IMG/VR virus record: IMGVR_UViG_3300032164_000072
Location: 1-23,458 of that record
Length of the DNA stretch: 23,458 nt
Source of the DNA: a virus
Strand: one strand, 5' to 3'
Every line of letters starts with the position of its first letter. Position 1 is the first letter of the stretch. Of this stretch, positions 1-14,700 are shown piece after piece. Under the pieces are notes generated by a model. That model made no database searches, was not told where the DNA came from, and was given only the letters and a program-made list of their open reading frames with translations. The position numbers and the translations under genes were made by a program.

Positions 1-1
1 T

Positions 2-91
2 TCATTAAAACAATTTAAGGAAGCTAAAGAAGCCCAAGTTGAAATGTGGCCAGAGGTAGATGCAGAACCATGTTTAATTTGTTCGGTTTGA
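2..91 (+). CDS. 3' end of an unidentified gene (partial)
   Basis: An open frame enters from the left edge and ends with TGA at 89-91. The visible 29 residues are mostly charged and finish ..EPCLICSV, with a CxxC pair near the C-terminus. The start is outside the window, so family and length cannot be judged. It ends about 30 bases before the first attC-like hairpin, so it is probably the terminal gene of the cassette that hairpin closes. Unlike the other cassette-terminal genes it does not stop with TAAC. No function can be assigned. Confidence 0.45.
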   Translation, partial: SLKQFKEAKEAQVEMWPEVDAEPCLICSV

Positions 92-120
92 ATATGTATT
101 TCGGTTTTCGGCGGTGGGAA

Positions 121-176
121 TATAACGTAAAGGGTCAGAGGTGGCTTTTAGCCATCCTCTGCACCCGCTGGTTATC
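121..176 (+). other. attC-like recombination site 1 (clearest copy)
   Basis: Seen: ATAAC at 122-126 pairs with GTTAT at 171-175. An unpaired spacer (127-131 versus 167-170) follows. GGGT 132-135 pairs with ACCC 163-166, C162 is extrahelical, CAGAGG 136-141 pairs with CCTCTG 156-161, T155 is extrahelical, and TGGC 142-145 pairs with GCCA 151-154 around a 5-base loop. Known: integron attC sites are recognised as folded single strands with end boxes, an unpaired central spacer and extrahelical bases on one arm. Inferred: this is an attC whose crossover point would be between G171 and T172. I see no competing explanation such as a terminator, because no T-tract follows. Confidence 0.8.
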
Positions 177-185
177 TGGGGTTTT

Positions 186-416
186 ATGATTCGTGATTGT
201 GAAAATATCGGGGAATACGGCGGCACTTGTAAACACAAACAATACGTTTTCGCTGGCAATAGTAAAACGAAGGAGAAGGCCCATATTCATTGTAAAGCCC
301 TCAATGCCTCGATTCTTTTAAGCGTAGATTATATGTCCGACGAAGGCGCTCAATGGCATTTATGGGAACCGTTGACACCAGAGCGATGTCCAATGAAGGT
401 TTATAATTTCAGATAA
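186..416 (+). CDS. small hypothetical cassette protein (76 aa)
   Basis: A 76-residue soluble protein with three cysteines (CENIG.., GGTCKHKQ, HIHCKA) and no membrane segment. An in-frame ATG at 141 lies inside the attC-like hairpin. The ATG at 186, with GGGG four bases upstream, is the better start because it lies just beyond the crossover point, as cassette genes usually do. It ends TAA-C, its stop codon being part of the next attC-like site. The KHKQY/HIHCK pattern suggests possible metal binding but matches no family I recognise. It is the only gene of its presumed cassette. Confidence 0.6.
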   Translation: MIRDCENIGEYGGTCKHKQYVFAGNSKTKEKAHIHCKALNASILLSVDYMSDEGAQWHLWEPLTPERCPMKVYNFR

Positions 417-463
417 CGACTGAACTCAGCGGCGTGTCGCACGTCCGCTGGAGTGATTGGTTA
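411..463 (+). other. attC-like recombination site 2
   Basis: TAAC 414-417 pairs with GTTA 460-463. Spacers 418-423 and 455-459 are unpaired. ACTC 424-427 pairs with GAGT 451-454, G450 is extrahelical, AGCGG 428-432 pairs with CCGCT 445-449, T444 is extrahelical, and CGTG 433-436 pairs with CACG 440-443 around a TCG loop. This is the same geometry as the site at 121-176 with different bases, which argues that structure rather than sequence is conserved. The stop codon of the preceding gene (414-416) is embedded in the left box. The GTG at 453 that would lengthen the next gene lies within the right arm and is therefore unlikely to be its true start. Confidence 0.78.
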
Positions 464-478
464 TATTCCACTGGGCGA
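459..478 (+). repeat. left arm of a 20-bp perfect inverted repeat around the MT-A70 gene
   Basis: The 20 bases here are the exact reverse complement of 1029-1048. The arm begins inside the right end of attC-like site 2 and runs into the 5' leader of the methyltransferase gene. The partner arm contains the last codons and the stop of the same gene. If the segment between sites is a cassette, its two ends would be complementary and would lengthen the base of the attC hairpin in the excised circle. Confidence 0.85.
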
Positions 479-488
479 GGTTTTGACT

Positions 489-1046
489 TTGAAGTTTAAT
501 ATTATTTATGCTGATCCACCTTGGAGGTTGAATATGTCAAAAAATCGACCACAATGGGGAGACGCTACATATCCTACAATGAACACAAAAGATATATGCA
601 AATTACAGGTTAACCAAATTGCAGACTATAATTGTGCTTTGTTTTTATGGGTAACAATGCCATTTATACCAGATGGTTTAAAGGTTATCCAATCATGGGG
701 GTTTGAATATGTAACATGTGCTTTTGTATGGATTAAACAAAACCGCAGCGGGACTGGTATATATTCTGGGTTAGGACAGTGGGTAAATGGTAATGCCGAA
801 TTGTGTTTCTTAGGACGTAAAGGGAAACTGGTTCGCAAAAGTAAAAAGGTCAAACAAATTATATTGTCGCCTGTACAAAAGCATAGTTTAAAACCACCAG
901 AAATCAGGGATAGAATCATAAAATTACTCGGAGATTTGCCCCGCATCGAACTTTTTGCTCGTCAAAAAACAGAGGGTTGGGATGTATGGGGTAACGAAAT
1001 CGAATCTGATATTGATTTGGGGTTTTCTTCGCCCAGTGGAATATAA
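489..1046 (+). CDS. MT-A70 family adenine-specific methyltransferase (copy 1)
   Basis: Predicted SAM-dependent N6-adenine methyltransferase. From a TTG start at 489 the 185-residue protein begins MKFNIIYADPPW, placing the catalytic DPPW at residues 9-12 as is typical of short bacterial and phage MT-A70 proteins. The C-terminal signature RIELFAR..GWDVWGNE is complete. TTG 489 has GAGG eight bases upstream. The alternative GTG at 453 is inside the attC-like hairpin. The gene is AT-rich compared with the second MT-A70 gene at 1445, and the two proteins are clearly diverged. It would methylate DNA in a short target (family-level inference), possibly protecting phage DNA from restriction. It ends ATA-TAA-C, again with the stop in an attC-like box. 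Confidence 0.85.
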   Translation: MKFNIIYADPPWRLNMSKNRPQWGDATYPTMNTKDICKLQVNQIADYNCALFLWVTMPFIPDGLKVIQSWGFEYVTCAFVWIKQNRSGTGIYSGLGQWVNGNAELCFLGRKGKLVRKSKKVKQIILSPVQKHSLKPPEIRDRIIKLLGDLPRIELFARQKTEGWDVWGNEIESDIDLGFSSPSGI

Positions 1047-1048
1047 CC
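1029..1048 (-). repeat. right arm of the 20-bp perfect inverted repeat
   Basis: Exact reverse complement of 459-478. It covers the last codons and stop of the first MT-A70 gene and the beginning of the following attC-like sequence. An mRNA spanning the gene could pair its two ends. I see no T-tract, so a terminator role is not indicated. Confidence 0.85.
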
Positions 1049-1092
1049 ATTGATTAACAAACCATTTTGCCCTGATAATGCAAAACTAAGTA
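1042..1092 (+). other. degenerate attC-like junction (left half recognisable)
   Basis: The 15-mer at 1042-1056, starting TATAACC, is repeated exactly at 4243-4257, both times overlapping the stop codon of a DNA methyltransferase gene. It has the left-box-plus-spacer form of the clear attC-like sites. A short hairpin (TTTTGC/GCAAAA around a 9-base loop) follows, but I find no right-hand GTTA box before the next gene. It could be a truncated or hybrid site, or an attC whose right half was lost when the next gene was joined. Confidence 0.4.
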
Positions 1093-1103
1093 GCGGAGGG
1101 ATT

Positions 1104-1292
1104 ATGAAAGAGTCAACAGAAAGAATCATTGACTTGGGTGAGGATGAACATTACCCCTATACTTGTAATCGGTGCGGAGGCACAGGAGAAATAGTAGTTT
1201 GCCCTGATGATATGTGCCACGGATTGGGATATTGTATACATGGAGATGGGATGTTAATTTGCCATGAATGTAATGGGGAAAGTGCATTCTAA
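1104..1292 (+). CDS. small DnaJ-type zinc-finger protein (62 aa)
   Basis: The 62-residue protein has paired CxxCxGxG-like repeats (CNRCGGTGEIV.., CHGLGYC, CHECNGES), resembling the cysteine-rich zinc domain of DnaJ. No J-domain is present, so it is not a co-chaperone. The ATG at 1104 follows GGAGG with good spacing. An upstream in-frame start at 1050 would overlap the junction sequence and is disfavoured. Small stand-alone zinc proteins of this type are common in phages and their role is generally unknown. It ends TTC-TAA-C, matching the cassette-end pattern. Whether it shares a cassette with the preceding methyltransferase depends on whether the junction at 1042 is a real attC. Confidence 0.65.
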   Translation: MKESTERIIDLGEDEHYPYTCNRCGGTGEIVVCPDDMCHGLGYCIHGDGMLICHECNGESAF

Positions 1293-1305
1293 CGACTTAT
1301 GGTTT
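1290..1305 (+). other. possible collapsed attC remnant
   Basis: TAACGACT at 1290-1297 equals the first eight bases of the site-2 left arm (414-421), and GGTTT follows at 1301-1305 where a right box would be. The whole internal stem is absent. This would fit deletion of the hairpin interior, but the match is short and could be chance. Confidence 0.25.
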
Positions 1306-1448
1306 CCACTTATAAAATAGCATCCATCGAAAAACTTTTAGAAGAACTACAAGATGAGGCAGATTTCCAAAGAGAAAGCCTTCATAATAAACAATATGCT
1401 CAGGGCATTGAGTATTGCACCCAAAAGCTAAGTGAGGCTTTGACATGA
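1299..1448 (+). CDS. small hypothetical protein (49 aa), coupled to the next gene
   Basis: A 49-residue, strongly helical, charged protein (..SIEKLLEELQDEADFQRES..YAQGIEYCTQKLSEALT), the kind of short coiled-coil gene common in phages. Its TGA overlaps the ATG of the following methyltransferase as ATGA, so the two are probably translationally coupled. Its own ribosome site is weak. Base composition is AT-rich like the genes to its left, and changes abruptly just inside the next gene. No function is recognisable. Confidence 0.5.
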   Translation: MVSTYKIASIEKLLEELQDEADFQRESLHNKQYAQGIEYCTQKLSEALT

Positions 1449-2047
1449 GCGAAGCGAATGGCAATAGCATCCACTCTCTTGTTGGCCTTTCCGGGTTCCG
1501 GTGCATCGTCGCCGACCCGCCGTGGCCGTACCGTGCCGACCGGCCTTTCGGATCGTCGCCAGAGTACCGCCCGAACAGTTGGGACAGGCCCACGTCTGCC
1601 CCAAGCGCACGCGCACGCTACAGCCTCATGCCGATGACGGAGATCAAGGCGTTGCCCATTCCGGCAGACGACAATGCCCACCTTTACCTCTGGACGACAA
1701 ACGCCTTCATGCGCGAAGCACATGAGGTCGCAGAGGCGTGGGGATTCAAACCGAAGACTATCGTAACGTGGGTGAAAACCAAGGTGGCCGACCGGGCCAG
1801 CGTCAGCATGAGAATGGGCTACTACTTCCGGGGGGCAACCGAACACTGCCTGTTTGCCGTGCGCGGCAAGATGCGCTTGAACGTGCGCAATCTCCCGACC
1901 GCGTTCCTGTGGCCGCGCATCGGGCAGCACAGCCGGAAGCCGGACGCATTCTTCGAGATGGTGGAGACGGCGACGCCGGGGCCACGGCTTGAACTGTTCG
2001 CCCGCCGCGCCCGCCCCGGCTGGACAGTATGGGGTAATGAGGTATAA
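1445..2047 (+). CDS. MT-A70 family adenine-specific methyltransferase (copy 2, GC-rich)
   Basis: A 200-residue MT-A70 family enzyme with DPPW at residues 24-27 and the C-terminal RLELFARRARPGWTVWGNE signature. Predicted role is N6-adenine methylation of DNA using SAM. The middle region (YSLMPMTEIKALPIPADDNAHLYLW..) fits the family. Start ATG 1445 has GAGG seven bases upstream, inside the preceding gene. The coding sequence is conspicuously GC-rich with G/C third positions, unlike every neighbour, so it probably came recently from a GC-rich genome. It ends GTA-TAA-C inside the left box of the long attC-like site. It shares only family motifs with the copy at 489, so duplication is unlikely. 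Confidence 0.88.
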   Translation: MSEANGNSIHSLVGLSGFRCIVADPPWPYRADRPFGSSPEYRPNSWDRPTSAPSARARYSLMPMTEIKALPIPADDNAHLYLWTTNAFMREAHEVAEAWGFKPKTIVTWVKTKVADRASVSMRMGYYFRGATEHCLFAVRGKMRLNVRNLPTAFLWPRIGQHSRKPDAFFEMVETATPGPRLELFARRARPGWTVWGNEV

Positions 2048-2168
2048 CGGTAAGCGTAACCTGCGACAGTAGAAACTTGGGAAATATTACAATGACGAAT
2101 CTAAGAACATATAATAATACGGAAGAATGCACACGGGCTGATGTCGTCAGGTTGACGCATTGGTTAGT
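2043..2168 (+). other. attC-like recombination site 3 (long form)
   Basis: TAAC 2045-2048 pairs with GTTA 2163-2166. Spacers 2049-2053 and 2159-2162 are unpaired. GCGT 2054-2057 pairs with ACGC 2155-2158, G2154 is extrahelical, AACCTG 2058-2063 pairs with CAGGTT 2148-2153, T2147 is extrahelical, and CGAC 2064-2067 pairs with GTCG 2143-2146. The loop between is 75 bases. The whole is about 122 bases, in the size range of the long Vibrio-type attC sites. Bulge positions match those of the two short sites upstream. The stop codon of the MT-A70 gene lies in the left box. Confidence 0.8.
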
Positions 2169-2203
2169 TTGCATACGCTTTTCAAATTGCGAGCGTTTTT
2201 AAT

Positions 2204-2485
2204 ATGGAAAACAAAAAGGAATCTTTATTGTTTAGCGAGGAAGAGCTTACCCCGTGGCTTGCTGCGTGGAAAAATATGCCCGAATACAATATACAAGACC
2301 TTGCACCTAAATTTCAGATAATAGTAAATTTCGCTTGTGCGGCAGATATAGAAGATTTCGGAAAGTTAATCGGGCAAGAAGTAAAAGCAAACGCGGGAAA
2401 ACAGTTGAAAAGTATTTGGTTTCCTGAACAGGAAATCGGGAGAATGATAAACAAGCGGTACATAGAGGTAAAAAATGAATCCTAA
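2204..2485 (+). CDS. small protein partnered with the DNA glycosyltransferase (93 aa)
   Basis: A 93-residue protein with a C-terminal segment (IIVNFACAADIEDFGKLIGQEV..KSIWFPEQEIGRMINKRYI) like a short domain I associate with phage and plasmid DNA-modification neighbourhoods. There it often appears as the tail of ParB/sulfiredoxin-like proteins (family recollection, not tested). No ParB core is present here. The ribosome site before ATG 2204 is weak. Its 3' end overlaps the glycosyltransferase start by 11 bases, so the pair is translationally coupled and probably travels as one two-gene cassette. Its stop (TAA-G) is internal to the cassette, consistent with only the last gene abutting the attC box. 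Confidence 0.6.
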   Translation: MENKKESLLFSEEELTPWLAAWKNMPEYNIQDLAPKFQIIVNFACAADIEDFGKLIGQEVKANAGKQLKSIWFPEQEIGRMINKRYIEVKNES

Positions 2486-3359
2486 GTTTCCGGTATTTAT
2501 TCCAACGAAAGGACGCGCAGACACGCGACTTACGGTGAAAATGTTTGAACGCCTCGGAGTTCCATACACGGTGTTTGTAGAAAAACAAGAATATGAAGCA
2601 TACGCGGAACACATTGCACCGGAACGGATACACATATTGCCATATCAAAATAAAGGTGTAACGGTTACGCGGAATTACATTTGGGAATACGCGGAAAAAA
2701 TAGGCGCGGAATGGTATTGGACTTTCGATGATAACATAGACGGGCTATATCGCTTCAATCACAATTTGAAAACACCGTGTGCCGATGGAACGATCCTTGC
2801 GGTAGTTGAGGACTTTGCGGGAAGATATGAAAACCTTGCAATAACGGGATTGAACTACTTTATGTTTGTAAAACGGAAATATGTGATACCTCCATATATT
2901 TTGAATACAAGAGTATATTCTGCAATGCTGATTAGAACTAAAATCGCCAATCCAAACGGAGGAAATTTTAGGTGGGTTACATTTTTTAACGAGGACACCG
3001 ATTTGTGTCTGCGCGTCTTGAAAGCCGGATATGCAACGGTGTTGTTTAATGCTTTCCTGATATACAAACAAACAACAATGACAATGAAGGGTGGAAACAG
3101 TGATTACTATGCTAAGACAGATCAAAGGAAAGAATTTGTAGAGGAATTGATTAAACACCATCCCGACGTTGTGAGACTGACGGAAAAATGGGGAAGATGG
3201 CATCATCACGTTGACTATTCAGGATTTAAACAGCAGTTGAGGAAAAAGAACGGGGTAAGCGTTCCGAGTATAGAAAATAATTTCGGTATGGTTTTACAAG
3301 AGAGAATAAATGGAATATGGGTAAACCAAGACGCGAGCAATTTGAGTATGTCAAACTAA
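2475..3359 (+). CDS. TET-associated-type DNA glycosyltransferase (TAGT-like)
   Basis: A 294-residue GT-A-like glycosyltransferase matching the TET-associated glycosyltransferase type found in phages that hypermodify cytosine. Visible family features are PVFIPTKGRAD (6-16), a DDN metal/nucleotide-sugar motif at 85-87, LNYFMF..PPYILNTRVYSAMLI (126-153), NEDTDLCLRVLKAG (172-185), MKGGN (204-208) and GRWHHHVDY near the C-terminus. In characterised relatives a TET dioxygenase makes 5-hydroxymethylcytosine and the transferase adds a sugar. No TET gene is in this window. The enzyme therefore needs a TET outside it, a hydroxymethylated precursor, or another substrate. It starts at ATG 2475 inside the upstream partner and ends AAC-TAA-C. 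Confidence 0.82.
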   Translation: MNPKFPVFIPTKGRADTRLTVKMFERLGVPYTVFVEKQEYEAYAEHIAPERIHILPYQNKGVTVTRNYIWEYAEKIGAEWYWTFDDNIDGLYRFNHNLKTPCADGTILAVVEDFAGRYENLAITGLNYFMFVKRKYVIPPYILNTRVYSAMLIRTKIANPNGGNFRWVTFFNEDTDLCLRVLKAGYATVLFNAFLIYKQTTMTMKGGNSDYYAKTDQRKEFVEELIKHHPDVVRLTEKWGRWHHHVDYSGFKQQLRKKNGVSVPSIENNFGMVLQERINGIWVNQDASNLSMSN

Positions 3360-3381
3360 CGCCATTCATGAGCTGCGGGGA
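3356..3381 (+). other. possible attC left half after the glycosyltransferase
   Basis: CTAACGCC follows the stop codon in the same way as the clear attC-like sites, but no complementary right arm or GTTA box is found before the next gene. The 26-base gap also holds the ribosome site (GGGGA) of the downstream methyltransferase. It could be a worn or hybrid site, or simply an intergenic gap with a chance TAAC. Confidence 0.3.
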
Positions 3382-3386
3382 ATGAA

Positions 3387-4247
3387 ATGAGCATGGACAT
3401 TGAGAAAAAAGGGGAGGCTATTCCCCGTCTGCTCGATGAAATTGTTATAAATTATGGGGGCGGCTGTTGCCTTTATAATTCTGATTGCCTTGATATTCTC
3501 AGGACGCTGCCTGATGGCTCTGTAGATATGATCCTGCAAGACCCGCCTTATAACATGACGGCCTGTAAATGGGAGTGTGAGCTTGATTTCCCTGTTCTTT
3601 GGAAAGAGTGGGAACGGGTAGTCAAAGCCAACGGTGCTATCATTATGACGGCAAGCCAGCCGTTTACAACTGACCTGATAAGTTCAAAGAGAACATGGTT
3701 TAAGTATGAATGGATTTGGAATAAACAACAAGCTGGTAATTTTACTATTGCTAAACAACAGCCGTTAAGAAAACATGAAAACATTTTAGTTTTTTATGCA
3801 AAACAACCAACATATAACCCACAAATGGAAAAAGCAAAGGTTGAAAACATTAGGCCAACGATTGATTGTGGAGTTAATTCAATAACAAATTTAACATCAA
3901 AACACAGCGAAACATATTCACAGGAATATAATTACCCATCAAGTGTCATTGATAACTTCCACGGTCGCATGGCTGAATGTAATTCAGTGGCAAGGCAACA
4001 CCCGACACAGAAGCCCGTTGACCTCTTCCGGTATTTGATAAGGACATACACAAATGAAGGGGAAACGGTCTTTGACGGATACGGAGGCTCAGGGACAACG
4101 GCTGTTGCCTGCATCAAAGAGAATAGAAAATACATTATTTGCGAAAAGGAGGCTGAATACATTGAGATTACAAAGAAGCGAATTGACGAAGCGACAAGGC
4201 AGGGGGACTTGTTTTCGGCTGTTGGCTGTTGCCCCCATGATTTATAA
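3387..4247 (+). CDS. beta-class DNA methyltransferase (N6-adenine/N4-cytosine)
   Basis: A 286-residue SAM-dependent DNA methyltransferase of the N6_N4 family. The catalytic DPPY motif (52-55) precedes the SAM-binding motif FDGYGGSGTT (229-238), the order that defines the beta class. The HPTQKP signature is at 205-210. FDGYGGSGTT replaces the usual FxDPFxGSGTT form, a mild departure. The central target-recognition portion (about 110-200) is visibly more AT-rich than the ends. Start ATG 3387 follows GGGGA; a second ATG at 3393 is possible. No restriction endonuclease gene is adjacent, so it looks like an orphan or phage protective methylase. It ends TTA-TAA-C. Confidence 0.88.
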   Translation: MSMDIEKKGEAIPRLLDEIVINYGGGCCLYNSDCLDILRTLPDGSVDMILQDPPYNMTACKWECELDFPVLWKEWERVVKANGAIIMTASQPFTTDLISSKRTWFKYEWIWNKQQAGNFTIAKQQPLRKHENILVFYAKQPTYNPQMEKAKVENIRPTIDCGVNSITNLTSKHSETYSQEYNYPSSVIDNFHGRMAECNSVARQHPTQKPVDLFRYLIRTYTNEGETVFDGYGGSGTTAVACIKENRKYIICEKEAEYIEITKKRIDEATRQGDLFSAVGCCPHDL

Positions 4248-4260
4248 CCATTGATTATGC
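4243..4260 (+). other. terminal degenerate attC-like junction
   Basis: The 15-mer at 4243-4257 is identical to 1042-1056 and again overlaps the stop codon of a methyltransferase gene. No right-hand arm is visible before the next gene at 4279. It marks the last TAAC-ending gene before ordinary phage genes begin, so it is the most likely array-phage boundary. Confidence 0.4.
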
Positions 4261-4278
4261 GGAGCGTGCAAGGTAGGG

Positions 4279-4578
4279 ATGTATAGGAAACGAACCAAGG
4301 CCAGCAAAAAATATAATGCGATGAGGGAGGCAAGACTGAGACAAATCGAGGAAGGTCCTACTCCGGATTACCCTCGCGATCTACCGGATCTCCGGAGGCA
4401 GATTGTAATTGAGGACTATGATTTCGGATATGTTCGGTACGAGATCAATCTCTACAAAACAAATCGAATAGACTCCTATCGCATGGAGGTTGACGGTGCG
4501 ATTATCCTCGAATGCATTGGGTGGTCTCGGGTATTGGAAAGGGTAAGAAAAGCATTTTTGAGAGTGCAGGCTACATAG
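4279..4578 (+). CDS. conserved hypothetical protein (99 aa)
   Basis: A 99-residue basic-then-acidic protein (MYRKRTKASKKYNAMREARLRQIEEG..., then ..DYDFGYVRYEINLYKTNRIDSYRMEVDG..IGWSRVLERVRKAF). The second half looks like a compact beta-rich domain that I recall from small bacterial and phage hypothetical proteins, but I cannot name it. Start ATG 4279 has AAGG five bases upstream. It ends in TAG rather than TAAC and has no attC-like structure after it, so I place it with the phage genes and outside the cassette array. Confidence 0.65.
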   Translation: MYRKRTKASKKYNAMREARLRQIEEGPTPDYPRDLPDLRRQIVIEDYDFGYVRYEINLYKTNRIDSYRMEVDGAIILECIGWSRVLERVRKAFLRVQAT

Positions 4579-4617
4579 GGTAAGTAGAGGCAGTAAAGGA
4601 GAAATCTCAAATATAAC

Positions 4618-4634
4618 TTGCAATCGAATTGCAA
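4618..4634. promoter_or_regulatory. short perfect inverted repeat upstream of the 4654 gene
   Basis: TTGCAAT at 4618-4624 and ATTGCAA at 4628-4634 flank CGA. It lies 20 bases upstream of a start codon with no T-tract, so it is more likely an operator-like or mRNA-leader element than a terminator. Short palindromes also arise by chance. Confidence 0.3.
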
Positions 4635-4653
4635 CTGAAAAACGGAGGTGAAA

Positions 4654-5562
4654 ATGTCAACTTATGTGGTATGTCCAGATCGGGATGGAAAGAAGGTAGC
4701 GGTCGAAGTGTGCGTGAACGGCTGTAAGCTAAGAGAGGTCTGTGAAGAGTTTTTAGAGGTCCCCGTAGAGGTGATCAATTCGGCGAGAACCGGGTTAATT
4801 CCTTCAAGTAACATCGTTTCAGAATCCCAAGACGAAAAGGCCCTTGTGGTCCCGTCCGGTAGGGCTGAAGAGGCTCTTAAGCGGGCCCTTTCGATTAGGA
4901 CCGATATTGAGGCGAAATTCCTTGAGATGGGCCAGGTGCTGAACGAGATATTTGAGAACCGCTATTACCTGGAATACGGGCCAGAGAGGAACAAATACAA
5001 GGACTGGAAAATGTTTTGTTTTGAAGTTCTTGGGATAAAGGGCCGGACCGCGACCTATCTCAGAGATATCTATGTCAAAATGACGGCCCTTGAGGTGCCG
5101 GAGCAGGAGTGTGCCCAGATCGGATGGACGAAGCTGGCGCAGATTTTGCCCATCGTCAACAAAAAGAATGTGGATCACTGGATCAAGGAAGCGAAGAAGC
5201 CGGGCGCGACGGCGCAATCATTAAATGCGAAGGTTCGGGTAGCCCAAGGCAAAATCACCGAGAAGGAGGCTGAGATCCTGCCCGAGAAGATGATATTCAG
5301 CTTTTTCAAGGAACAGAGGGAAATAGTGGAGCTCGCACTCGACATAGGGTTGAAACTTACCGGATCGAAGAGCAGAAGCAGCGTTCTGGCGGACAGCATA
5401 TGCCCCGAATTTCTTTCCACCTATCCTTCCGGATGGGAGAGTCTTACAAAAGGGGAGGTGATAGCGGCAATCCTGCGGCGGTACGAATCAGGGTTCAATG
5501 TTAGGTTTTTGGGAAGTGTGGTTGAGGTAGAAACGGGAGAAGTTCTTTTGTCATGGGAATAA
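4654..5562 (+). CDS. hypothetical phage protein with N-terminal cysteine cluster (302 aa)
   Basis: The 302-residue protein opens with a likely small metal site (VCPDRDGKKVAVEVCVNGCKLREVC). A mostly helical body follows, including a segment (IGWTKLAQILPIVNKKNVDHWIKEAKKPGATAQSLNAKVRVAQGKITEKEAE, roughly 150-205) of the kind found in plasmid- and phage-encoded DNA-associated proteins (family impression only). The ATG at 4654 has GGAGG at 4644-4648, better spaced than the in-frame GTG at 4648. It is the first gene of a tightly packed early cluster running to 6791. Function unknown; a DNA-binding or replication accessory role is possible but unproven. Confidence 0.7.
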   Translation: MSTYVVCPDRDGKKVAVEVCVNGCKLREVCEEFLEVPVEVINSARTGLIPSSNIVSESQDEKALVVPSGRAEEALKRALSIRTDIEAKFLEMGQVLNEIFENRYYLEYGPERNKYKDWKMFCFEVLGIKGRTATYLRDIYVKMTALEVPEQECAQIGWTKLAQILPIVNKKNVDHWIKEAKKPGATAQSLNAKVRVAQGKITEKEAEILPEKMIFSFFKEQREIVELALDIGLKLTGSKSRSSVLADSICPEFLSTYPSGWESLTKGEVIAAILRRYESGFNVRFLGSVVEVETGEVLLSWE

Positions 5563-5587
5563 TGAGAGAGATGAAAGGAGGACGAAG

Positions 5588-5929
5588 ATGAAGGCGGCAC
5601 TCGATAAGATACCAGAAAAGATTAAAGAGTTGGTGACCAGAAACGTGGACGATCTCGTGGAGGCATGGGCGAATTGTGGCGGAGACCCATTGACGATATC
5701 CTTCTCCGCAAAAATCGGATTTAAAAAGGAGAAGCCCATCTGTGAGACCTCAATCTCTTTTATAAAAGAAAAAATTAGCGATTCGATAACTTTCGAATGG
5801 GAAAACCGGCAACTCGATCTTAAACTGAAGGAAGCGGTAGATGCGCTTAGGCCAGACGGAAAGGATGGTATGGAATCAGTGACGATTTCATCCGGCGGCT
5901 ATTCGGTGACATTAGAGGCGAAAGAGTGA
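5588..5929 (+). CDS. hypothetical phage protein (113 aa)
   Basis: A 113-residue acidic/basic alternating protein with no cysteine cluster or membrane segment. It contains alternating beta-type segments (LTISFSAKIGF, ETSISFI, SVTISSGGYSVTLEA), suggesting a small beta-sheet fold. A strong ribosome site (AAGGAGG) precedes ATG 5588. Its TGA overlaps the GTG of the next small gene. No family recognised. Confidence 0.65.
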   Translation: MKAALDKIPEKIKELVTRNVDDLVEAWANCGGDPLTISFSAKIGFKKEKPICETSISFIKEKISDSITFEWENRQLDLKLKEAVDALRPDGKDGMESVTISSGGYSVTLEAKE

Positions 5930-6096
5930 CAAGGGATCGCCTTAAATGGATCATTAGTGGTCTTGATTTTGAATGCCTGACAGATTGGGAAGGGAAATTT
6001 GTAGAGGATATAGAGGCATTTTTCGGCAGGCATGGGGACCTGACCGAAAGACAGGAGGAAATATTGGAGCGATTGTATCGAGAAAAGGGGAGATAA
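5926..6096 (+). CDS. small hypothetical protein (56 aa)
   Basis: A 56-residue helical protein (..RLKWIISGLDFECLTDWEGKFVEDIEAFFGRHGDLTERQEEILERLYREKGR) starting at GTG 5926 in a GTGA overlap with the preceding stop. The C-terminal half (DLTERQEEILERLY) resembles a widespread short phage motif found in small proteins encoded beside HNH nucleases and recombination genes, which supports it being real. No catalytic residues are evident. Confidence 0.65.
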   Translation: MTRDRLKWIISGLDFECLTDWEGKFVEDIEAFFGRHGDLTERQEEILERLYREKGR

Positions 6097-6102
6097 AAAG
6101 GA

Positions 6103-6417
6103 ATGCCTGAAGTAAGATCCTTTCCCAAACTTCACCGAGAACGTCTTAAAGGGGATGCCTATCGGGAGTTTGCACAAGAAATCCTCAGAAGGGACGGATA
6201 TAGATGTCGGCATTGCGGGTCCATGAAGGGGTTGACGATTCATCATCTAATCAAGCGGTCGCAGTTGGGAGGGGACACGGCTGGGAATGTCATAATTTTG
6301 TGTTTGGCCGATCATGAGGCAGTTGAACGCAATGAACTGAAGATCGAGGTATTAGATGTGGTTATAAAATTCCATAACCGAGAGGAGGCCAGAGATGAAG
6401 AAGCAAAGCAGCCGTAG
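6103..6417 (+). CDS. HNH endonuclease
   Basis: A 104-residue HNH-family nuclease. CRHCG (about 35-39) gives the first zinc-binding pair, LTIHHLIKRSQLGGD contains the HH catalytic core, and GNVIILCLADHEAVER gives the N and the final zinc/His element. Such small HNH proteins in phages act in DNA packaging near the terminase or as stand-alone homing endonucleases. This one lies upstream of the packaging module among accessory genes, so either is possible. Start ATG 6103 follows an in-frame stop and uses GGGGAG ten bases upstream. The 3' end overlaps the next gene. Confidence 0.82.
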   Translation: MPEVRSFPKLHRERLKGDAYREFAQEILRRDGYRCRHCGSMKGLTIHHLIKRSQLGGDTAGNVIILCLADHEAVERNELKIEVLDVVIKFHNREEARDEEAKQP

Positions 6418-6590: not shown

Positions 6591-6791
6591 ATGATAGAGA
6601 TAATCAACCAATGCTACATCTGTAAGGAATGGTTTGAGGAAAAGGTGCTGAAGCCGATCTGTATTCCAGACCAATCGGGATATGTGGAAAAACCTGTATG
6701 CCCCGGATGCCTCGATGAGATAAAGACCCGATCGGAGGGAATCCCCAAGAAAACCCCGGGGGGATTATTACTGGACAGAAAAGACGGATAA
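6591..6791 (+). CDS. small zinc-ribbon protein (66 aa)
   Basis: A 66-residue protein with CYICKEWF (C8, C11) and CPGC (about 38-41), forming a likely four-cysteine zinc ribbon. A good ribosome site (AGAGGTG) precedes ATG 6591. Such ribbons are common in phage early regions and may recruit nucleic acid or protein partners; the specific role is unknown. It is spaced four bases from the preceding stop. Confidence 0.6.
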   Translation: MIEIINQCYICKEWFEEKVLKPICIPDQSGYVEKPVCPGCLDEIKTRSEGIPKKTPGGLLLDRKDG

Positions 6792-6848
6792 GTTAAGAAA
6801 ATAATACTATGTGGCAAAGTGAAATTAGTTGCCTTTCAGGAGGATGAA

Positions 6849-7538
6849 ATGGGCTTGAATAAGCAAAGAGGAAATATGTTTCCCTGGGTCACCCACACCA
6901 TAAACCCGATCAAGGGTTGCCTCCATGATTGCAGTTATTGTTATTTGAGATCGCTACTGTTCTTTGAGATGACGCCCCGGTTTGAGGAAAGAGAGGTAAA
7001 AAGAGGGCTTGGCAAGGGGAGAGTGATCTTTGTGGGATCGGCCAGCGACATGTGGGGAGTGTGGGTTCCGGATGTCCAAATCCATGCGGTTCTGGAACAG
7101 TGCATGAAATATCCGGATAACACCTATCTCTTCCAGTCCAAGAATCCTGAAAGATTCAAGAATTTCATATTCCCTCCCAAAACGATCCTTGGCACCACCA
7201 TAGAGACGAACAGGCAGGGGCTGATACAAAGCAAGGCCCCAAAGGTGGAAAGTAGGGTTCAGGCTATGGTGGCTTTCAAGGATGCAAGGAAAATGGTGTC
7301 CCTTGAGCCGATCATGGACTTTGACCTGGAAGCGATGGTGAGGATGATCTCATTGGTCGGGCCTGAGTTTGTGAGCATTGGCGCGGATAGCAAGAATCAC
7401 GCGTTAATGGAACCTTCCTGGAAGAAGGTGAGGGAATTGATTGAAAGGTTGGGAGGAATTACGGAGGTTAGGGAGAAGGAGAATCTGGAAAGGCTGAAGT
7501 CTACAGTCAATAAAGGTCAACATTTATGGGGAAATTGA
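6849..7538 (+). CDS. phage Gp37/Gp68-family radical-SAM-like protein (DUF5131 type)
   Basis: A 229-residue protein with INPIKGCLHDCSYCYLRS at about 18-35. Cysteines 24, 28 and 31 form a CX3CX2C pattern that in radical-SAM enzymes holds a 4Fe-4S cluster. RVIFVGSASDMWG and the later TTIETN, VSLEPIMDF and SIGADSKNH segments fit the phage Gp37/Gp68 family. Members occur in many phages and prophages and their reaction is not established as far as I know. ATG 6849 has AGGAGG at 6838-6843; an in-frame GTG at 6819 is less well supported. The following small membrane-peptide gene starts two bases after the stop. Confidence 0.82.
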   Translation: MGLNKQRGNMFPWVTHTINPIKGCLHDCSYCYLRSLLFFEMTPRFEEREVKRGLGKGRVIFVGSASDMWGVWVPDVQIHAVLEQCMKYPDNTYLFQSKNPERFKNFIFPPKTILGTTIETNRQGLIQSKAPKVESRVQAMVAFKDARKMVSLEPIMDFDLEAMVRMISLVGPEFVSIGADSKNHALMEPSWKKVRELIERLGGITEVREKENLERLKSTVNKGQHLWGN

Positions 7539-7539
7539 A

Positions 7540-7629
7540 ATGTGGATCCTCGGAATTTTCTGTATCATTTGGGCTTGCTATGGAATGTGGATAATCCATA
7601 AAAAGAGGAAAATGAGAAGCACCATTTGA
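7540..7629 (+). CDS. tiny single-span membrane peptide (29 aa)
   Basis: ATG 7540 opens a 29-residue peptide, MWILGIFCIIWACYGMWIIHKKRKMRSTI: one hydrophobic segment followed by a positively charged tail, i.e. an N-out/C-in membrane peptide by the positive-inside rule. It starts just after the stop of the preceding gene with GGGGA upstream. Very short phage membrane peptides are often real but seldom annotated. No function can be assigned. Confidence 0.45.
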   Translation: MWILGIFCIIWACYGMWIIHKKRKMRSTI

Positions 7630-7662
7630 TATAGACAATCCCTATAGAAACGGAACAATAAA

Positions 7663-7896
7663 ATGCCAATCTGTAAGGATTGCAGGAGACCATTCACCAA
7701 GAATGTGTGGGAAAGAACCCGGAAATTCTGCATTCCATGCTCCGACAGAAGAGCAAAGGAGCAAGGCCACTTCGATAGGATTCATGGCGGATCGGTGCTT
7801 AATGCAAGGATTAGGGCCGATGGCTCTGGCAATCCGAAAATATGGACTTCAGGAGATTATGACCAGGGATTTTTGGAGAGCTTGGTCCCGAAATAA
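7663..7896 (+). CDS. small zinc-binding protein (77 aa)
   Basis: A 77-residue protein with CKDCRRPFTKNVWERTRKFCIPC in its first 27 residues: two CxxC pairs 16 apart, a classic treble-clef or ribbon zinc site. The rest is polar. The ribosome site is weak. An overlapping frame from 7703 is also open but lacks the cysteine pattern, so this frame is chosen. Probably a nucleic-acid-associated phage protein; no family name. Confidence 0.55.
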   Translation: MPICKDCRRPFTKNVWERTRKFCIPCSDRRAKEQGHFDRIHGGSVLNARIRADGSGNPKIWTSGDYDQGFLESLVPK

Positions 7897-7906
7897 AGGG
7901 AACAAT

Positions 7907-8015
7907 GGAAACAAAGCGCAAGATAGTGAAATGACTTAGGGAATTTGTGGTATTATGCTGAAATGTTTCCATAGAAAGAAATGATAGGAAACAATAGGAA
8001 ACAAATGAGGAAACA
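7907..8015. repeat. cluster of GGAAACA repeats at the small-terminase start
   Basis: GGAAACA occurs on the + strand at 7907-7913, 7987-7993, 7997-8003 and 8009-8015, and inverted at 7964-7970. A near copy, GGAACA, is at 7899-7904. The last three are spaced 10 and 12 bases apart, close to helical repeat. Known: pac or cos recognition sites often lie in or beside the small terminase gene. Inferred: a terminase-binding or operator site. The motif is short and A-rich, so chance clustering must be tested. Confidence 0.5.
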
Positions 8016-8676
8016 CATAGACTATGACCAGCTTCAGATTCTTGCCGATTTGAAGCTCACCAAGGCAGAGATGTCCAGAAGGCTCGGGGTCGGACGTCCG
8101 GCCATAACAAAGGCCATCAGAAAGCTCAAGGGATATGCTACGAGAGTTGTGGCGCTTGAAAAGGCCAAGGAATACGGAGTGATTCAGTTCAACGTGATGC
8201 AGGATCATCTGGATGACCTGAAATATTTAAAGGAGATCTTAGATCCTGTACACCGATATAACATGGGAGACAAAGAAGGTTTCATAGCGATGCAGAGAAA
8301 GATCGAGTCTCAGTCAGCGGAAGGGGAGCCCGACCAGGAAGGGAAAAGAAAACAGAAATTGAACCGGGGCAGAAAGATCAAGAGAGAGCAGAAGATTGAG
8401 ACCTTCGATTTTACCATGGATCCCCGGCTCCTTGAGACAAGGATTATTGAGGTGAGACTGAAATGCAGAGATTTTATCCTTGAAGCCTGGAAGACTGTTG
8501 CAAGCAAGGAAGAGGTTGAAGCCTTCAGGGAGACGTTCATAGAGACGCTCAGGGAGGTGAACTCCGAGATGAAGTGCCCGAACTGTGGGCATATATGGGA
8601 GACCGATGCGGCAGAAAGATTCGTCGACAGGCTTAGATCGAAACGAATTATCAGACCAGACATTATCCTACATTGA
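8005..8676 (+). CDS. terS: probable terminase small subunit
   Basis: A 223-residue protein with an N-terminal helix-turn-helix (YDQLQILADLKLTKAEMSRRLGVGRPAITKAIRKLKG), a helical middle, a basic linker (KRKQKLNRGRKIKREQK) and a C-terminal CPNC motif. Its position directly upstream of, and overlapping, the large terminase plus the N-terminal DNA-binding domain make it the probable small terminase, which binds the packaging site and regulates the ATPase. ATG 8005 has AGGA with good spacing; an in-frame ATG at 7981 has a poor site and lies within the repeat cluster. It overlaps the large subunit start by about 70 bases. Confidence 0.7.
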   Translation: MRKHIDYDQLQILADLKLTKAEMSRRLGVGRPAITKAIRKLKGYATRVVALEKAKEYGVIQFNVMQDHLDDLKYLKEILDPVHRYNMGDKEGFIAMQRKIESQSAEGEPDQEGKRKQKLNRGRKIKREQKIETFDFTMDPRLLETRIIEVRLKCRDFILEAWKTVASKEEVEAFRETFIETLREVNSEMKCPNCGHIWETDAAERFVDRLRSKRIIRPDIILH

Positions 8677-10798
8677 GGATAGGCTGAACCTGAAGAGGAA
8701 AAGGGCGTTCAACTTTAAGATTGACCTGCCGGTCCCTTTCCCTAAGCAGGCATTTGCCATCGAGCATCTCAAGAAAAGGAATGTCTTCAAGGTCGGGAGA
8801 AGGGGCGGGAAGACCGTCCTTGTCTCGATCATAGCGGGGAATAAATTTAGGGAAAAGAGAAGGATTCTTTATGCTGCCCCTACCACTGAGCAGCTTGACA
8901 GGTTCTGGACCACGGTCACAAGGGCCCTTGCGAAGCCAATAGAACAAGGGGTTCTGTACAAGAACGAGACACTCCATTTGATCGAGATCCCTGGGACGGA
9001 ATATCGGATTAAGGCAAAGACTGCCTGGAATGCAGATACTTTGCGTGGAGACTATTCGGATCTTCTCATCCTCGATGAGTGGCAGTTGATGAATGAGGAT
9101 GCCTGGGAGTTTGTGGGTGCACCGATGCTTCTTGATAACGATGGGGATGCGATTTTTCTATTCACGCCGCCATCCCTCCACAGCCGGTCGGTGAGCAAAG
9201 CCAAGGATCTTCAGCACGCATCGAAGATGTATGAGAAATACAGAGATGATGAAACCGGAAGGTGGGCCACGTTTCACTGGACCTCTCACGATAATCCAAC
9301 CCTGAGTAATAAGGCTTTATTGGATATCACAAAAGACATGACTTCTATCGCCTATAACATAGAGATCATGGCCCAGGATATAGACCAGGCCCCTGGTGCG
9401 CTTTGGAAAAAGGAAGATATAGAACACAACCGGGTATTTAAGGCCCCTGAATTGTCGAGGATAGTCGTAGGGGTTGATCCTTCGACGACAAGCGGAGGGG
9501 ACGAGGCCGGGATAATAACGGCAGGAAGGGGAGGGGAGGACGGGTACGTTTTATCGGATGATAGTATCCAGGGGAGTCCCTTGGTTTGGGCGACTGCGGC
9601 GGTCACCGCGTTCCACAAGTTCAAGGCGGATCGGATAGTTGCTGAGTGTGTACCCATTGATAGTGAGGCCCTAACAAAGGAAGGATGGAAGCCTCCAGTA
9701 GATCTTCGTGTTGGAGACCACATATTAGGCTATGATTTAAGCACGGACACATGTAAGTGGACTAAAATAATTGCCTTAAATTTTGGTTATGATGAAGTCA
9801 TTACTTATGGCAATTCAAGTTTTCATGTGCGATGCACTCGGAACCACAAATGGCCGATGAGAATTGAGAGCCGTGCGGGAAGAGCCAAGTATGGCAAGCG
9901 TTTGAAATGTAGTAAGAAAACTCAAGGCATGTTTACTATTGATGAAATGCTGAGAAGTTGGCGGCGTGCAAGAATGATTCAATGTGTTCCAGCGGATATA
10001 GGTAGTGGCATTGTTATAGCTAAATTTACTGATTGGATAGATCGTAACAATGCGGTTCGTAAGGTTTTGCAAATGAGCAGACAACAAAGAATTGGCTTTA
10101 TCTATGGAATGCTTCTCGGCGAAGGCACGCTTACGAAATGTGGGGGCGTACAGTTCAGTCAAAATCCAGGAGCAATAAATGATGCGTTTCTTCTTGCCTG
10201 TTTCCTTGAAGGGGTCCCTGCGAGTCATTGCCGAATTAATAGAAAGAAATGGAACGGAGAAGATCGTATTAGTTATCGAACATGGCTTCACAGATCACGT
10301 ACACTCCTTATAGAAAAGGTTCAAGAACTAAGGAGTAAGTCAGAAGAGGTTTGGTGTCCCACGACCCAACTTGAGACATGGGTAATGAGACAAGATGAGA
10401 GGATCACAATCACGGGCAATTCAAATAATGGCGGGGAGATGGTGGAACTCACGATCAAACAGGTCGATCATTCCATTCCCGTCAAACTTGTCCATGCATC
10501 CAGAGGAAAATTTACGAGGGCCGAGCCCATAGCGGCCAACTATGAGAAGGGAAGGGTTCATCATGTCGGAAAATTCGATGCACTTGAGCGGGAGCAATGC
10601 CTATGGATTCCGGGCGATCCGTCTCCGAATCGCATGGATGCCGCAGTTTGGGCCCTGACTGAACTTTTACTGAGGGCAACCCCGGGATTTGGTTTTGCGG
10701 GAAGATCCTATGAGCGGGAAACCAAAGCGGAGGAGAAGAAACAACCTTCCCGGAATATACGAGATCGGTTCATAGACAGATTTGACAGGGGGGATTGA
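8606..10798 (+). CDS. terL: terminase large subunit interrupted by an intein
   Basis: The 730-residue precursor is the packaging motor. Its ATPase half has a Walker-A-like GRRGGKT (64-70) and a Walker B/catalytic LLILDEW (D157, E158). The RNase-H-like nuclease half has VVGVDPS (D291) and, after splicing, the joined motif DRIVAE-SNNGGEMVE. Residues 348-605 are an intein with Cys at its first position and Ser as the +1 residue. Removing it leaves about 472 residues, a normal TerL length. Start ATG 8606 has GGGAG nearby; the GTG at 8585 is an alternative. The C-terminal tail (RSYERETKAEEKKQPSRNIRDRF) is basic. Its stop overlaps the next ATG. Confidence 0.93.
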   Translation: MRQKDSSTGLDRNELSDQTLSYIEDRLNLKRKRAFNFKIDLPVPFPKQAFAIEHLKKRNVFKVGRRGGKTVLVSIIAGNKFREKRRILYAAPTTEQLDRFWTTVTRALAKPIEQGVLYKNETLHLIEIPGTEYRIKAKTAWNADTLRGDYSDLLILDEWQLMNEDAWEFVGAPMLLDNDGDAIFLFTPPSLHSRSVSKAKDLQHASKMYEKYRDDETGRWATFHWTSHDNPTLSNKALLDITKDMTSIAYNIEIMAQDIDQAPGALWKKEDIEHNRVFKAPELSRIVVGVDPSTTSGGDEAGIITAGRGGEDGYVLSDDSIQGSPLVWATAAVTAFHKFKADRIVAECVPIDSEALTKEGWKPPVDLRVGDHILGYDLSTDTCKWTKIIALNFGYDEVITYGNSSFHVRCTRNHKWPMRIESRAGRAKYGKRLKCSKKTQGMFTIDEMLRSWRRARMIQCVPADIGSGIVIAKFTDWIDRNNAVRKVLQMSRQQRIGFIYGMLLGEGTLTKCGGVQFSQNPGAINDAFLLACFLEGVPASHCRINRKKWNGEDRISYRTWLHRSRTLLIEKVQELRSKSEEVWCPTTQLETWVMRQDERITITGNSNNGGEMVELTIKQVDHSIPVKLVHASRGKFTRAEPIAANYEKGRVHHVGKFDALEREQCLWIPGDPSPNRMDAAVWALTELLLRATPGFGFAGRSYERETKAEEKKQPSRNIRDRFIDRFDRGD
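9647..10420 (+). mobile_element. intein within terL, with LAGLIDADG-like endonuclease remnant
   Basis: A 258-residue in-frame insertion. Block A is CVPIDSEALTKEGWK (1-15), block B is HVRCTRNHKW with T64 and H67, block F is CPTTQLETWVMRQ (237-249), and block G ends ITGN followed by Ser. The penultimate residue is Gly rather than the usual His. A LAGLIDADG-like helix (FIYGMLLGEGTL, about 151-162) suggests a small or reduced homing endonuclease; only one such motif is evident, so it may act as a dimer or be decaying. DNA is more AT-rich than the flanking exteins. It sits exactly between conserved Glu and Ser-Asn-Asn-Gly-Gly of the nuclease motif. Confidence 0.92.
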
Positions 10799-11016
10799 TG
10801 ACCCAGGACAAAAAAGAGAATAATGGTGACTGCTACCTCATTGGATGGAAGCCCATCTGCGAGGTTATGGGCATTATTTCCCCGAAAACGGCCCGGGCGA
10901 TCATAAAGAGGGCCAATATTCCGGTAGGGAGGATATGGGTGAAAAAGATTTATCGGCCCGCTATAAGGAAATCGATTTTACTGGAATGCCTTGACAAGAT
11001 GGCGTATCAGTCATGA
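10798..11016 (+). CDS. small HTH DNA-binding protein (72 aa)
   Basis: A 72-residue protein resembling excisionase/MerR-type winged-helix proteins: YLIGWKPICEVMGIISPKTARAIIKRANIPVGRIWVKKIYRPAIRKSILLECLD, i.e. a helix-turn-helix followed by a strand and an alpha segment. Start ATG 10798 overlaps the terL stop (TGATG) with GGGGGG upstream; an in-frame TTG at 10795 is less likely. Similar small HTH proteins sit between terminase and portal in many phages and may be packaging or late regulators. Confidence 0.62.
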   Translation: MTQDKKENNGDCYLIGWKPICEVMGIISPKTARAIIKRANIPVGRIWVKKIYRPAIRKSILLECLDKMAYQS

Positions 11017-11077
11017 ATTTAGAGACACGAGTATCAACTTTACCTCACTTTACCCTCGTTAGGATTAAGATTGCATA

Positions 11078-11107
11078 TTGACAACCGAATCTTTCTGCAT
11101 GTAACAT
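11078..11107 (+). promoter_or_regulatory. candidate sigma70-type promoter
   Basis: A perfect TTGACA (11078-11083) is followed 18 bases later by TAACAT (11102-11107). It lies in the longest gene-free stretch of the window (11017-11416), upstream of a terminator. The -10 is imperfect, so the call is moderate. Confidence 0.4.
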
Positions 11108-11114
11108 TATATTC

Positions 11115-11328
11115 TGAAGTTTGGATTGCAGAAACAGAACATAATCAAAGCCACCGGGGGAACCTCGGGAAGAGCGGCCAGAGGTGTCGTGTAGCAATGC
11201 GAACCAATGAAGGTCGAACCATGTCTTTTGTGGAGTTCAACATTGTTTCATTGAGAACTATCTCTCATCTAACCCTCCTTTCTTTCTGATAGGCGCCCCT
11301 TGTGCGATACAGGGGACGCCTTTTTTGT
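11115..11328 (+). ncRNA. possible small RNA between promoter and terminator
   Basis: The 400 bases from 11017 to 11416 contain no convincing gene. They do contain a promoter-like site, about 210 bases with local pairing potential (CCGGGGGAACCTCGG near 11150; ACCTC/GAGGT near 11160-11185), and a rho-independent terminator. That arrangement fits a short untranslated transcript. Alternatively it is simply the leader of the downstream operon with a read-through terminator. I recognise no known RNA family. Confidence 0.25.
11294..11328 (+). terminator. rho-independent terminator
   Basis: GGCG-CCCCTTGT (11294-11305) pairs with ACAGGGGACGCC (11311-11322), with one bulged base on each arm, and is followed by TTTTTT at 11323-11328. 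It closes the packaging gene block or the candidate RNA and lies about 90 bases before the next gene. Confidence 0.8.
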
Positions 11329-11416
11329 TTTCGGGAGCTATAAGAAATGGGGAACAAGCTGGTGAGGAAGCTAAGGAAAATATCATGAATGATTTGGTGT
11401 CCCTGGAGCTGAACGA

Positions 11417-12157
11417 GTGAAATGTGAATTTTGTGGAGGCAACATAGTTGAGGACCAGTGGAACCCATTCGGGGGCGAAAAATGCATGATGTGCGGGAGA
11501 AAACCGAAGACAGAGGAAACTATGAGCAATCGGTTAAATCCGGAAAAGGAAGAAATGGTAAAGGCCCTCTTAAAAGATCATTCCATCAGGGATATCATCA
11601 AGGAAACCGGGGTGGCGAAGAATACGATTATACGGATTAGGAACGAGAATTTTACAGAGGAAGAAAAGGCCAAATTGAAAAAGTGGGCTAACGTGAAAGG
11701 GCGGAACAAAAGGGAATTGGAAAGGGAGGATCTGGAAGCGACAGAGCAACGGAGGGAGACGAAGGTGAATGAGGATCAAAAGACGAAAATTTGCAGCAAA
11801 TGCAAGGAACCAATGCTGCTAACAGAGGAACTTTTTTCACACAATCATTCGACTTCTGACGGCTGGGAAAGGTTTTGTAAGGCCTGTGCGAGCAAGATGA
11901 GGAAGGATCGAAAGGAAAAAACCGCAGGAAAGAATTCAGGGAACCGGAAACATGGCAACAATGGGGGTCGGGCGCGGAAGAGAACCCCCATAAAAGAAAT
12001 GCAGCTTGTCCGGGGAAGTGGCCCGATAATGAATTCGGAGCAGCTCTTCCGGACCTTTCGATACACGCTGGCCTATGAGATATGTGACGAGGTGGTCGGC
12101 CACATCAATCAGTTGAAGGAGAAACTTGCAAGTGAATTGCACCTGTCAAAAGCATAG
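11417..12157 (+). CDS. zinc-ribbon/HTH/zinc-finger phage protein (246 aa)
   Basis: The 246-residue protein has three parts. An N-terminal ribbon (C3, C6, C23, C26) is followed by a resolvase-like helix-turn-helix (about 43-77: EEMVKALLKDHSIRDIIKETGVAKNTIIRIRNEN). A second cysteine module (CSKCKEPMLLTEELFSHNHSTSDGWERFCKAC, C126/C129/C154/C157) leads to a very basic linker and helical C-terminus. The second module has the same layout as the two zinc modules of the HNH endonuclease at 15060. Start GTG 11417 has GGAG eight bases upstream. Location between terminase and portal suggests a late regulator or packaging accessory, but this is inference. Confidence 0.65.
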   Translation: MKCEFCGGNIVEDQWNPFGGEKCMMCGRKPKTEETMSNRLNPEKEEMVKALLKDHSIRDIIKETGVAKNTIIRIRNENFTEEEKAKLKKWANVKGRNKRELEREDLEATEQRRETKVNEDQKTKICSKCKEPMLLTEELFSHNHSTSDGWERFCKACASKMRKDRKEKTAGKNSGNRKHGNNGGRARKRTPIKEMQLVRGSGPIMNSEQLFRTFRYTLAYEICDEVVGHINQLKEKLASELHLSKA

Positions 12158-12492: not shown

Positions 12493-12504
12493 GGGAGGGA
12501 TGCA

Positions 12505-14697: not shown

Positions 14698-14700
14698 CCT

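Follow-up and report, generated by a model that had tools for sequence, protein, structure and literature searches.

The first 4250 positions of the IMG/VR virus record IMGVR_UViG_3300032164_000072 (positions 1 to 23,458, the whole stretch being referred to below as the window) probably form an integrase-less cassette array (cluster of attC sites lacking an integrase, CALIN) made of reversed cassettes, which is docked at a fixed insertion point of a tailed-phage genome and would be served by an integrase acting in trans. Four attC sites lie there within 3.4 kb with no integrase on the record, at least two neighbouring attC sites without integrase being what defines a CALIN. The genes run antisense to the attC sites, different arrays occupy one and the same joint in related phages, cassettes are shared between phages with joints at the AAC core, and the cargo is rich in DNA-modification enzymes. 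Integrase-less phage attC arrays with DNA methyltransferase cassettes have been published (Qi et al., 2023, PMC9892861, of which parts were available). The original prediction, made from the window's sequence, had presented a phage-borne attC array filled mainly with modification genes as a novelty; the array is there, its newness is not, since arrays of this kind were described in 2023. The antisense polarity of the attC sites is the new point.

The attC sites were located with a covariance model (R1) trained on 19 bacterial attC sites, namely 18 from gammaproteobacterial integron loci found via their integron integrase and that of aadA1 of plasmid R100, with no phage sequence in training. 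Run over the full window with filters off, R1 gave four matches with E below 1, all on the minus strand (Table 1), and five weaker ones with E from 1.4 to 6.6. Three segments had been proposed as attC sites (121–176, 411–463 and 2043–2168), with a covariance-model search as the suggested check; this search is positive at all three (E 2.8e-10 to 6.1e-5), which are real sites, whereas a fourth, at 3354–3450, had been overlooked. The same four minus-strand sites were recovered by a separate structured motif scan (scores in Table 1). Structured scans replaced a first free-alignment attC scan, which had too loose a spacer, and in dinucleotide shuffles (1.73 Mb) a motif score of 18 occurred 0.081 times per 10 kb, 19 occurred 0.023 times per 10 kb, and 20 never. 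AAC/GTT cores, paired R and L arms and two unpaired bases in one arm are present in all four sites. Lower motif matches in the window at 3626–3688 (16.0) and 10481–10652 (16.4), and low-threshold matches within structural genes (e.g., L012 5817–5908 and 6997–7126; scores 17–18), were treated as chance. R1 gave no match with E up to 5 in P12002L, a published phage array, and therefore misses some published attC sites. Rfam models at gathering scores found nothing on the window, and ARAGORN found neither tRNA nor tmRNA. That these hairpins are mainly transcription terminators or RNA signals between genes is highly improbable: weak terminators have been attributed to attC sites (PMC9892861, in part), but here the sites retain the two unpaired bases as well as the AAC/GTT cores, the cassettes have moved, and terminator-like matches are at chance level (7 vs 5.5 +/- 2.3).

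The polarity of the sites sets these arrays apart. On the gene strand of aadA1 of R100, it is the 5′ arm that holds the unpaired bases; in the phage arrays they lie in the other arm, and R1 detects the sites on the strand complementary to that of the genes. Polarity was scored against the longest open reading frame (ORF) with 50 or more codons between two adjacent attC sites, using 37 attC sites from 11 IMG/VR records and 90 attC sites from ten bacterial loci. At like cut-offs, 25 of 26 phage cassettes were antisense, against 14 of 78 in bacterial integrons (64/78 sense; p 4e-13); all three scored cassettes of the window are among the antisense ones. Restricting the count to matches with E up to 0.01 leaves 20/21 phage cassettes antisense and 57/69 bacterial ones sense (p 8e-11), one phage record per backbone gives 15/16 antisense (p 1e-8), and adding L023 to the bacterial count gives 65 same and 15 opposite (n = 80). 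The phage list holds R1 matches up to E 0.24, including the weak ones at L002 2290 (0.16), L046 4925 (0.073), L040 2965 (0.064), L048 2436 (0.21), L109 533 (0.21) and, in MW202573, L107 3399 (0.24). A first bacterial list with a limit of E 0.01 (80 of 101 matches, leaving out 10 weaker ones, 5 opposite-strand duplicates and 6 of L022/L023/L094/L103) was replaced by the count at like cut-offs. Preliminary counts were 23/24 opposite for phages, including chance clusters in structural genes that are absent from the later counts, and, by motif alone in bacteria, 10 same and 4 opposite with short flanks, 32 and 3 at threshold 17.5, and 24 and 1 at 18.5.

Independently of the unpaired bases, the attC located 5′ of a gene moves with that gene in four shared cassettes: E (window/G019), B (window/G011), a 99-aa ORF (G010/G011) and a 62–72-aa ORF (G014/G017). 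In 20 of the 42 phage sites (37 from IMG/VR and five from MW202573), a frame of 45 codons or more ends at the TAA of TAAC. Cassette starts and ends are complementary as expected (458–478 and 1029–1049 at 21/21 positions); this marks cassette limits, is compatible with both polarities and was not used for scoring. The earlier description of an integron-type attC array with all genes facing one way is borne out, except that the arrangement is not that of bacterial integrons: attC and gene lie on opposite strands, and an attC goes with the gene on its 3′ side. Among published phages scored here with R1, MW202573 resembles the window: it has five minus-strand attC sites at L107 2069–3738, of which one is weak, where the annotated genes are on the plus strand, and both scored cassettes are antisense. 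TJE1 differs, its attC sites being sense to the annotated genes; the longest-ORF rule gave one same and one opposite. A search of open-licence PMC literature on integrons in phages, viromes, orientation and strand (titles and abstract beginnings) returned no report of reversed cassettes in phages.

Other phages carry other cassettes at the same place, as the original prediction had suggested looking for. A separate record, L002, is 99.85% identical to the window over 4245–5566, 96.6% over 5572–6222 and 98.5% over 6591–14840, and left of 4245 its cassettes are wholly different: they carry an N6/N4 methyltransferase, four small genes and, at the truncated left end, a C5 methyltransferase, and contain five attC sites, of which one is weak. 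The distantly related G248 is 70.3% identical over window 4236–4565 (the joint and the first backbone gene), and has attC sites on the array side of the corresponding joint. The window joint thus recurs in L002 with another last cassette, and in G248 in diverged form. Genes for terminase, portal, head protease and capsid lie on the right part of the same contig, in agreement with the predicted head and packaging genes beside the array. A chimeric assembly of an integron contig and a phage contig can be given next to no credence, because of the identical joint of L002 with different cassettes, its diverged form in G248, and the same design on another backbone in four records, each with its own dataset number.

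Further records were obtained by IMG/VR searches with the attC types and with the sequence following AAC. Arrays on other backbones were found in G010 (L012), G011, G014, G015, G016 (L026), G017, G018 and G019, eight records whose BLAST matches to the window, if any, fall within its array; G009 has a single attC, so its polarity is not scorable. G010, G011, G015 and G019 have one common backbone (99.85–100% from the border) with differing arrays. Cassettes of the window recur singly, A in G010, B in G011 and G019, the Cys-rich segment in G011 and E in G019, and have other neighbours in each record. Cassette B is 98.5% identical to G011 (window 121–464) and 100% identical to G019 (window 293–418), with different genes following; attC4 with gene E (3365–4254) is 95.4% identical to G019, where another neighbour lies downstream; and the Cys-rich segment (1043–1293) is 99.6% identical to G011, the shared block stopping exactly at AAC. 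The window and L012 part company directly after AACG at the end of cassette A. Single cassettes have therefore been exchanged repeatedly between phages of unlike backbones. Seventeen ends of shared blocks were read from alignments, several of them reflecting one event; 13 lie at most 7 nt from an AAC core that opens an attC or a conserved block on the left (5′ on the gene strand).

This conserved block, of 36 bp, is present in the window at 1045–1080 and with 0–1 mismatches in eight other phage records (in one of them as two copies), and with 5 mismatches in L109; it also stands at the array/backbone border of another phage family. It contains TTGATT-N18-GATAAT and could be an attI, a promoter, or both. 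The promoter role is only suggestive, because promoter-like matches over 1–5600 are no more frequent than in shuffles (11 vs 10.1 +/- 3.2), a figure which agrees with the earlier remark that most array genes lack visible promoters. In the G011 contig at about 15834–16115 on the minus strand (L019/L020), two copies of the block flank the Cys-rich gene; this gene and the backbone gene both have the block and MKESTERII, or a close form of it, and the border of G011 seems to have been duplicated.

An ordinary CALIN, i.e., a piece of chromosomal integron acquired once from a bacterium, with the usual sense relation and no continuing exchange, is very unlikely. The attC sites do match a model of bacterial sites, and Vibrio prophages are known with CALINs taken from host integrons (PMC9892861, in part). 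Such an origin is at odds with the reversal in 25 of 26 phage cassettes vs 14 of 78 bacterial ones, with shared blocks that put an attC 5′ of its gene, and with one backbone bearing different arrays. In addition, a search for one arm of the commonest attC type matched 2 contigs of genome_contigs vs 5 of viral_contigs, and the exact pattern of the attI-like block, looked for as a host attI, occurred in 0/398 and 0/296 sampled genomes of two phyla, an absence which says little by itself since the hosts may lie elsewhere.

As noted in the original prediction, no integrase is visible: a PF00589 recombinase was not found on the 23,458-base record, nor in 11 of the 12 IMG/VR records that carry an array or an attC, which reach 66 kb and may be fragments, nor in three GenBank phages tested, including MW202573 (circular, complete, 34.6 kb). 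G248, whose array sits at the same joint as that of the window, is the exception and encodes a 265-aa tyrosine recombinase of XerA/XerD type. This enzyme suggests that a phage-encoded recombinase, and not a host integron integrase, might move the cassettes, which is improbable: its score with the integron-integrase model is 65 bits, the cut-off being 265, and PF00589 is missing from the 11 other records, with other recombinase families not searched. G007 also has a tyrosine recombinase, and no attC match in the L007 stretch searched.

The preferred reading, reversed cassettes moved by an integron integrase in trans, would work as follows. Each cassette is laid out as an attC followed by its gene, whose stop codon is often the TAA of the next TAAC core, and the genes point towards the insertion point and onward into the phage genes. 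Seen on the minus strand, the insertion point at 4246 would stand in place of attI, with cassettes succeeding each other from right to left. An integron integrase from the host, or from a co-resident element, would cut AA^C / G^TT and swap cassettes during a single-stranded stage of the phage DNA. IntI1 recombined five of six phage attC sites tested (PMC9892861, in part). In integrons, the choice of attC strand is set by the unpaired features and fixes the orientation of the cassette at attI for expression from Pc (PMC8946536, in part). With the docking point downstream and the genes read towards it, the strand-choice rule would favour reversed cassettes, and transcription from phage promoters on the left, which probably express the array genes, would select for them. 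The cargo would shield phage DNA from restriction. The recombinogenic strand is predicted to be the gene-sense strand, opposite to that of bacterial cassettes.

Several observations weigh against this reading. The 4 remaining ends out of 17 are not at AAC: both sides of one G015 exchange fall within an attC, at distances of 46 and 11 nt, which looks like homologous recombination between similar attC sites; the window/G011 block with B continues through attC2 to its other end (47 nt), as the attC sites of the two neighbours are near-identical; and one end of a G010/G011 block is blurred, 17 nt upstream. One L109 cassette was scored as sense. The segment 1294–2046 opens at an AAC core with no 5′ attC recognisable by R1 or the motif scan. 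The border of the window itself is without the 36-bp block, sharing only its first 12 bases, and G017/G018 and G248 have the attI-like block inside the array and not at the border. The phage sample, collected through similarity to attC or to the attI-like block, is not independent. No integron integrase was found in the array-bearing records, so that the enzyme is inferred, and all IMG/VR records may be fragments. Homologous or illegitimate recombination among phages, with attC sites acting as short homologies and no site-specific enzyme, would explain the G015 exchange between G011-like and G010-like arrays, and several attC sites are near-identical to each other. It is nevertheless an unlikely explanation for the whole, given the 13 ends close to AAC and joints even between sites alike in little but AAC, such as that after B in the window vs G019.

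A broader proposal is that of a phage-specific cassette economy, in which several lineages would keep a docking site and trade a private, reversed, modification-rich pool through an integron integrase they do not encode; we consider it about evenly balanced between true and false. The docking site would be a TAAC core followed, in most cases, by the conserved promoter-like block. The reversal would be adaptive, as with a docking site downstream only attC-antisense genes would come under phage transcription. Phage-born cassettes would then be recognisable by their reversed polarity, which would divide the phage pool from the bacterial one; this polarity is a simple, checkable marker that could separate phage-built from bacterial cassettes and bears on cassette origin. 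Integrons are known as bacterial gene-capture devices, and here several phage lineages swap discrete cassettes repeatedly at one site. Near-identical backbones with differing modification sets offer a direct, testable way in which phages could change their anti-restriction kit.

The predicted prevalence of DNA modification in the cargo was evaluated on ten array proteins of at least about 190 aa (four from the window and six from L002, L012, L020 and L051). By Pfam, nine of the ten are DNA-modification enzymes, as anticipated: two MT-A70, five N6/N4 (two of them the same cassette E) and one C5 methyltransferase, and one TET-associated glycosyltransferase (TAGT). The tenth is PAPS-reductase-like. 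A 257-aa AstE/AspA-like protein of L020 lies outside the attC sites of that array and was excluded. Small array ORFs scanned had no Pfam match and one weak PHROG match. In a BLAST comparison of window 1–4300 with GenBank phages, only parts of gene E were matched among the 20 of 57 records listed. The sharp shifts in base composition reported among the array genes are confirmed by a G+C content ranging from 0.376 to 0.636 per 500-base step across 1–4260.

Phages have anti-restriction modules that include orphan methyltransferases and base hypermodification. The arrays resemble them in their MT-A70, N6/N4 and C5 methyltransferases and TET-associated glycosyltransferase, and differ from them in that the genes are exchanged as discrete attC-bounded units. 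With the sedentary chromosomal integrons of gammaproteobacteria they have in common the attC architecture, on which R1 was trained, and tandem cassettes; those integrons, in contrast, have intI and mostly sense genes (64/78). The phage CALINs of Qi et al. (2023, PMC9892861) are similar in having attC without integrase, a phage carrier and methyltransferase cassettes; the available parts of that article hold no comparison of same-backbone phages with differing arrays, and such pairs are compared here. The delta-attI cassettes of mobile integrons (PMC12901181, in part) have an attI-like site instead of an attC, as the Cys-rich segment 1043–1293 may have. They are resistance cassettes of mobile integrons with recombination shown, whereas the site described here has a different sequence and is putative.

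Table 1. Features of the cassette array and the adjoining phage backbone (positions in the window).
Feature	Position	Strand	Evidence and remarks
3′ end of cassette A	1–126	+	Cut by contig end; ends in core TATAAC; window 3–127 identical to L012 1–125
attC1	120–177	-	Opposite strand to genes; R1 33.2 bits, E 4.3e-6; motif 19.9
Cassette B, small ORF	141–416	+	In-frame ATG at 186; longer frame overlaps attC1
attC2	411–466	-	Assigned to gene on its right; R1 50.5 bits, E 2.8e-10; motif 18.4
Cassette C, MT-A70 methyltransferase family	453–1046	+	PF05063, E 2.5e-30
36-bp conserved block AACCATTGATTAACAAACCATTTTGCCCTGATAATG	1045–1080	+	attI-like or promoter-like
Small Cys-rich (zinc-ribbon-like) protein	1050–1292	+	In-frame ATG at 1104; phrog_37414, E 8.4e-6
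49-codon ORF	1299–1447	+	No Pfam match; sole R1 match nearby E 6.6 at 1419–1487
Second MT-A70 methyltransferase	1445–2047	+	PF05063, E 5.5e-31; G+C rich, local value up to 0.636
attC3	2042–2169	-	R1 28.5 bits, E 6.1e-5; motif 20.2
Cassette D, first ORF	2204–2485	+	No Pfam or PHROG match
Cassette D, TET-associated glycosyltransferase	2475–3359	+	PF20691, E 2.7e-35
attC4	3354–3450	-	R1 23.5 bits, E 9.4e-4 (3357–3447); motif 20.5
Cassette E, N6/N4 DNA methyltransferase	3387–4247	+	PF01555, E 8.2e-30; listed frame opens inside its own attC4
Array/backbone joint CATTGATTATGCGG	4246–4257	+	Core AAC, then constant phage sequence
First backbone genes (99 aa, 304 aa)	4279–5562	+	Same direction as cassettes; phrog_17202 for 304-aa protein

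The ORF of cassette B, whose stop TAA is part of the following TAAC core, had no Pfam or PHROG match. The listed frame of cassette C opens at the first GTG, and a start after attC2 is more likely. The glycosyltransferase of cassette D also matches phrog_842 (beta-glucosyl-HMC-alpha-glucosyltransferase) with E 7.5e-40.

Outside the arrays, the backbones have some features of their own. The large terminase (window 8585–10798) has a long insert at about residues 355–600, between the ATPase and nuclease parts, which resembles an intein with an endonuclease-like stretch and has Pfam and PHROG matches on either side. A DUF5131/radical-SAM-like protein is encoded at window 6819–7538, in a stretch kept in sibling records. 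L002 and the window do not align between window 6222 and 6591, and an IscB-like gene with RRXRR and HNH domains (L002 5511–6983) is found where the window has a small HNH gene (6103–6417). In the backbone of L002, outside the array, a second gene, predicted from its sequence to be methyltransferase-like (3936–4772), has no counterpart in the window. After the capsid gene, window 19676–23456 is a run of glycosyltransferase- and methyltransferase-like genes; 19697–23458 is matched by G003 at 97.3% and not by L002. L042 16848–18062 (G014 56848–58062) is adenylosuccinate-synthetase-like, with 2-aminooxy adenylosuccinate synthetase as best PHROG (E 4.6e-50), a family associated with adenine-replaced phage DNA.

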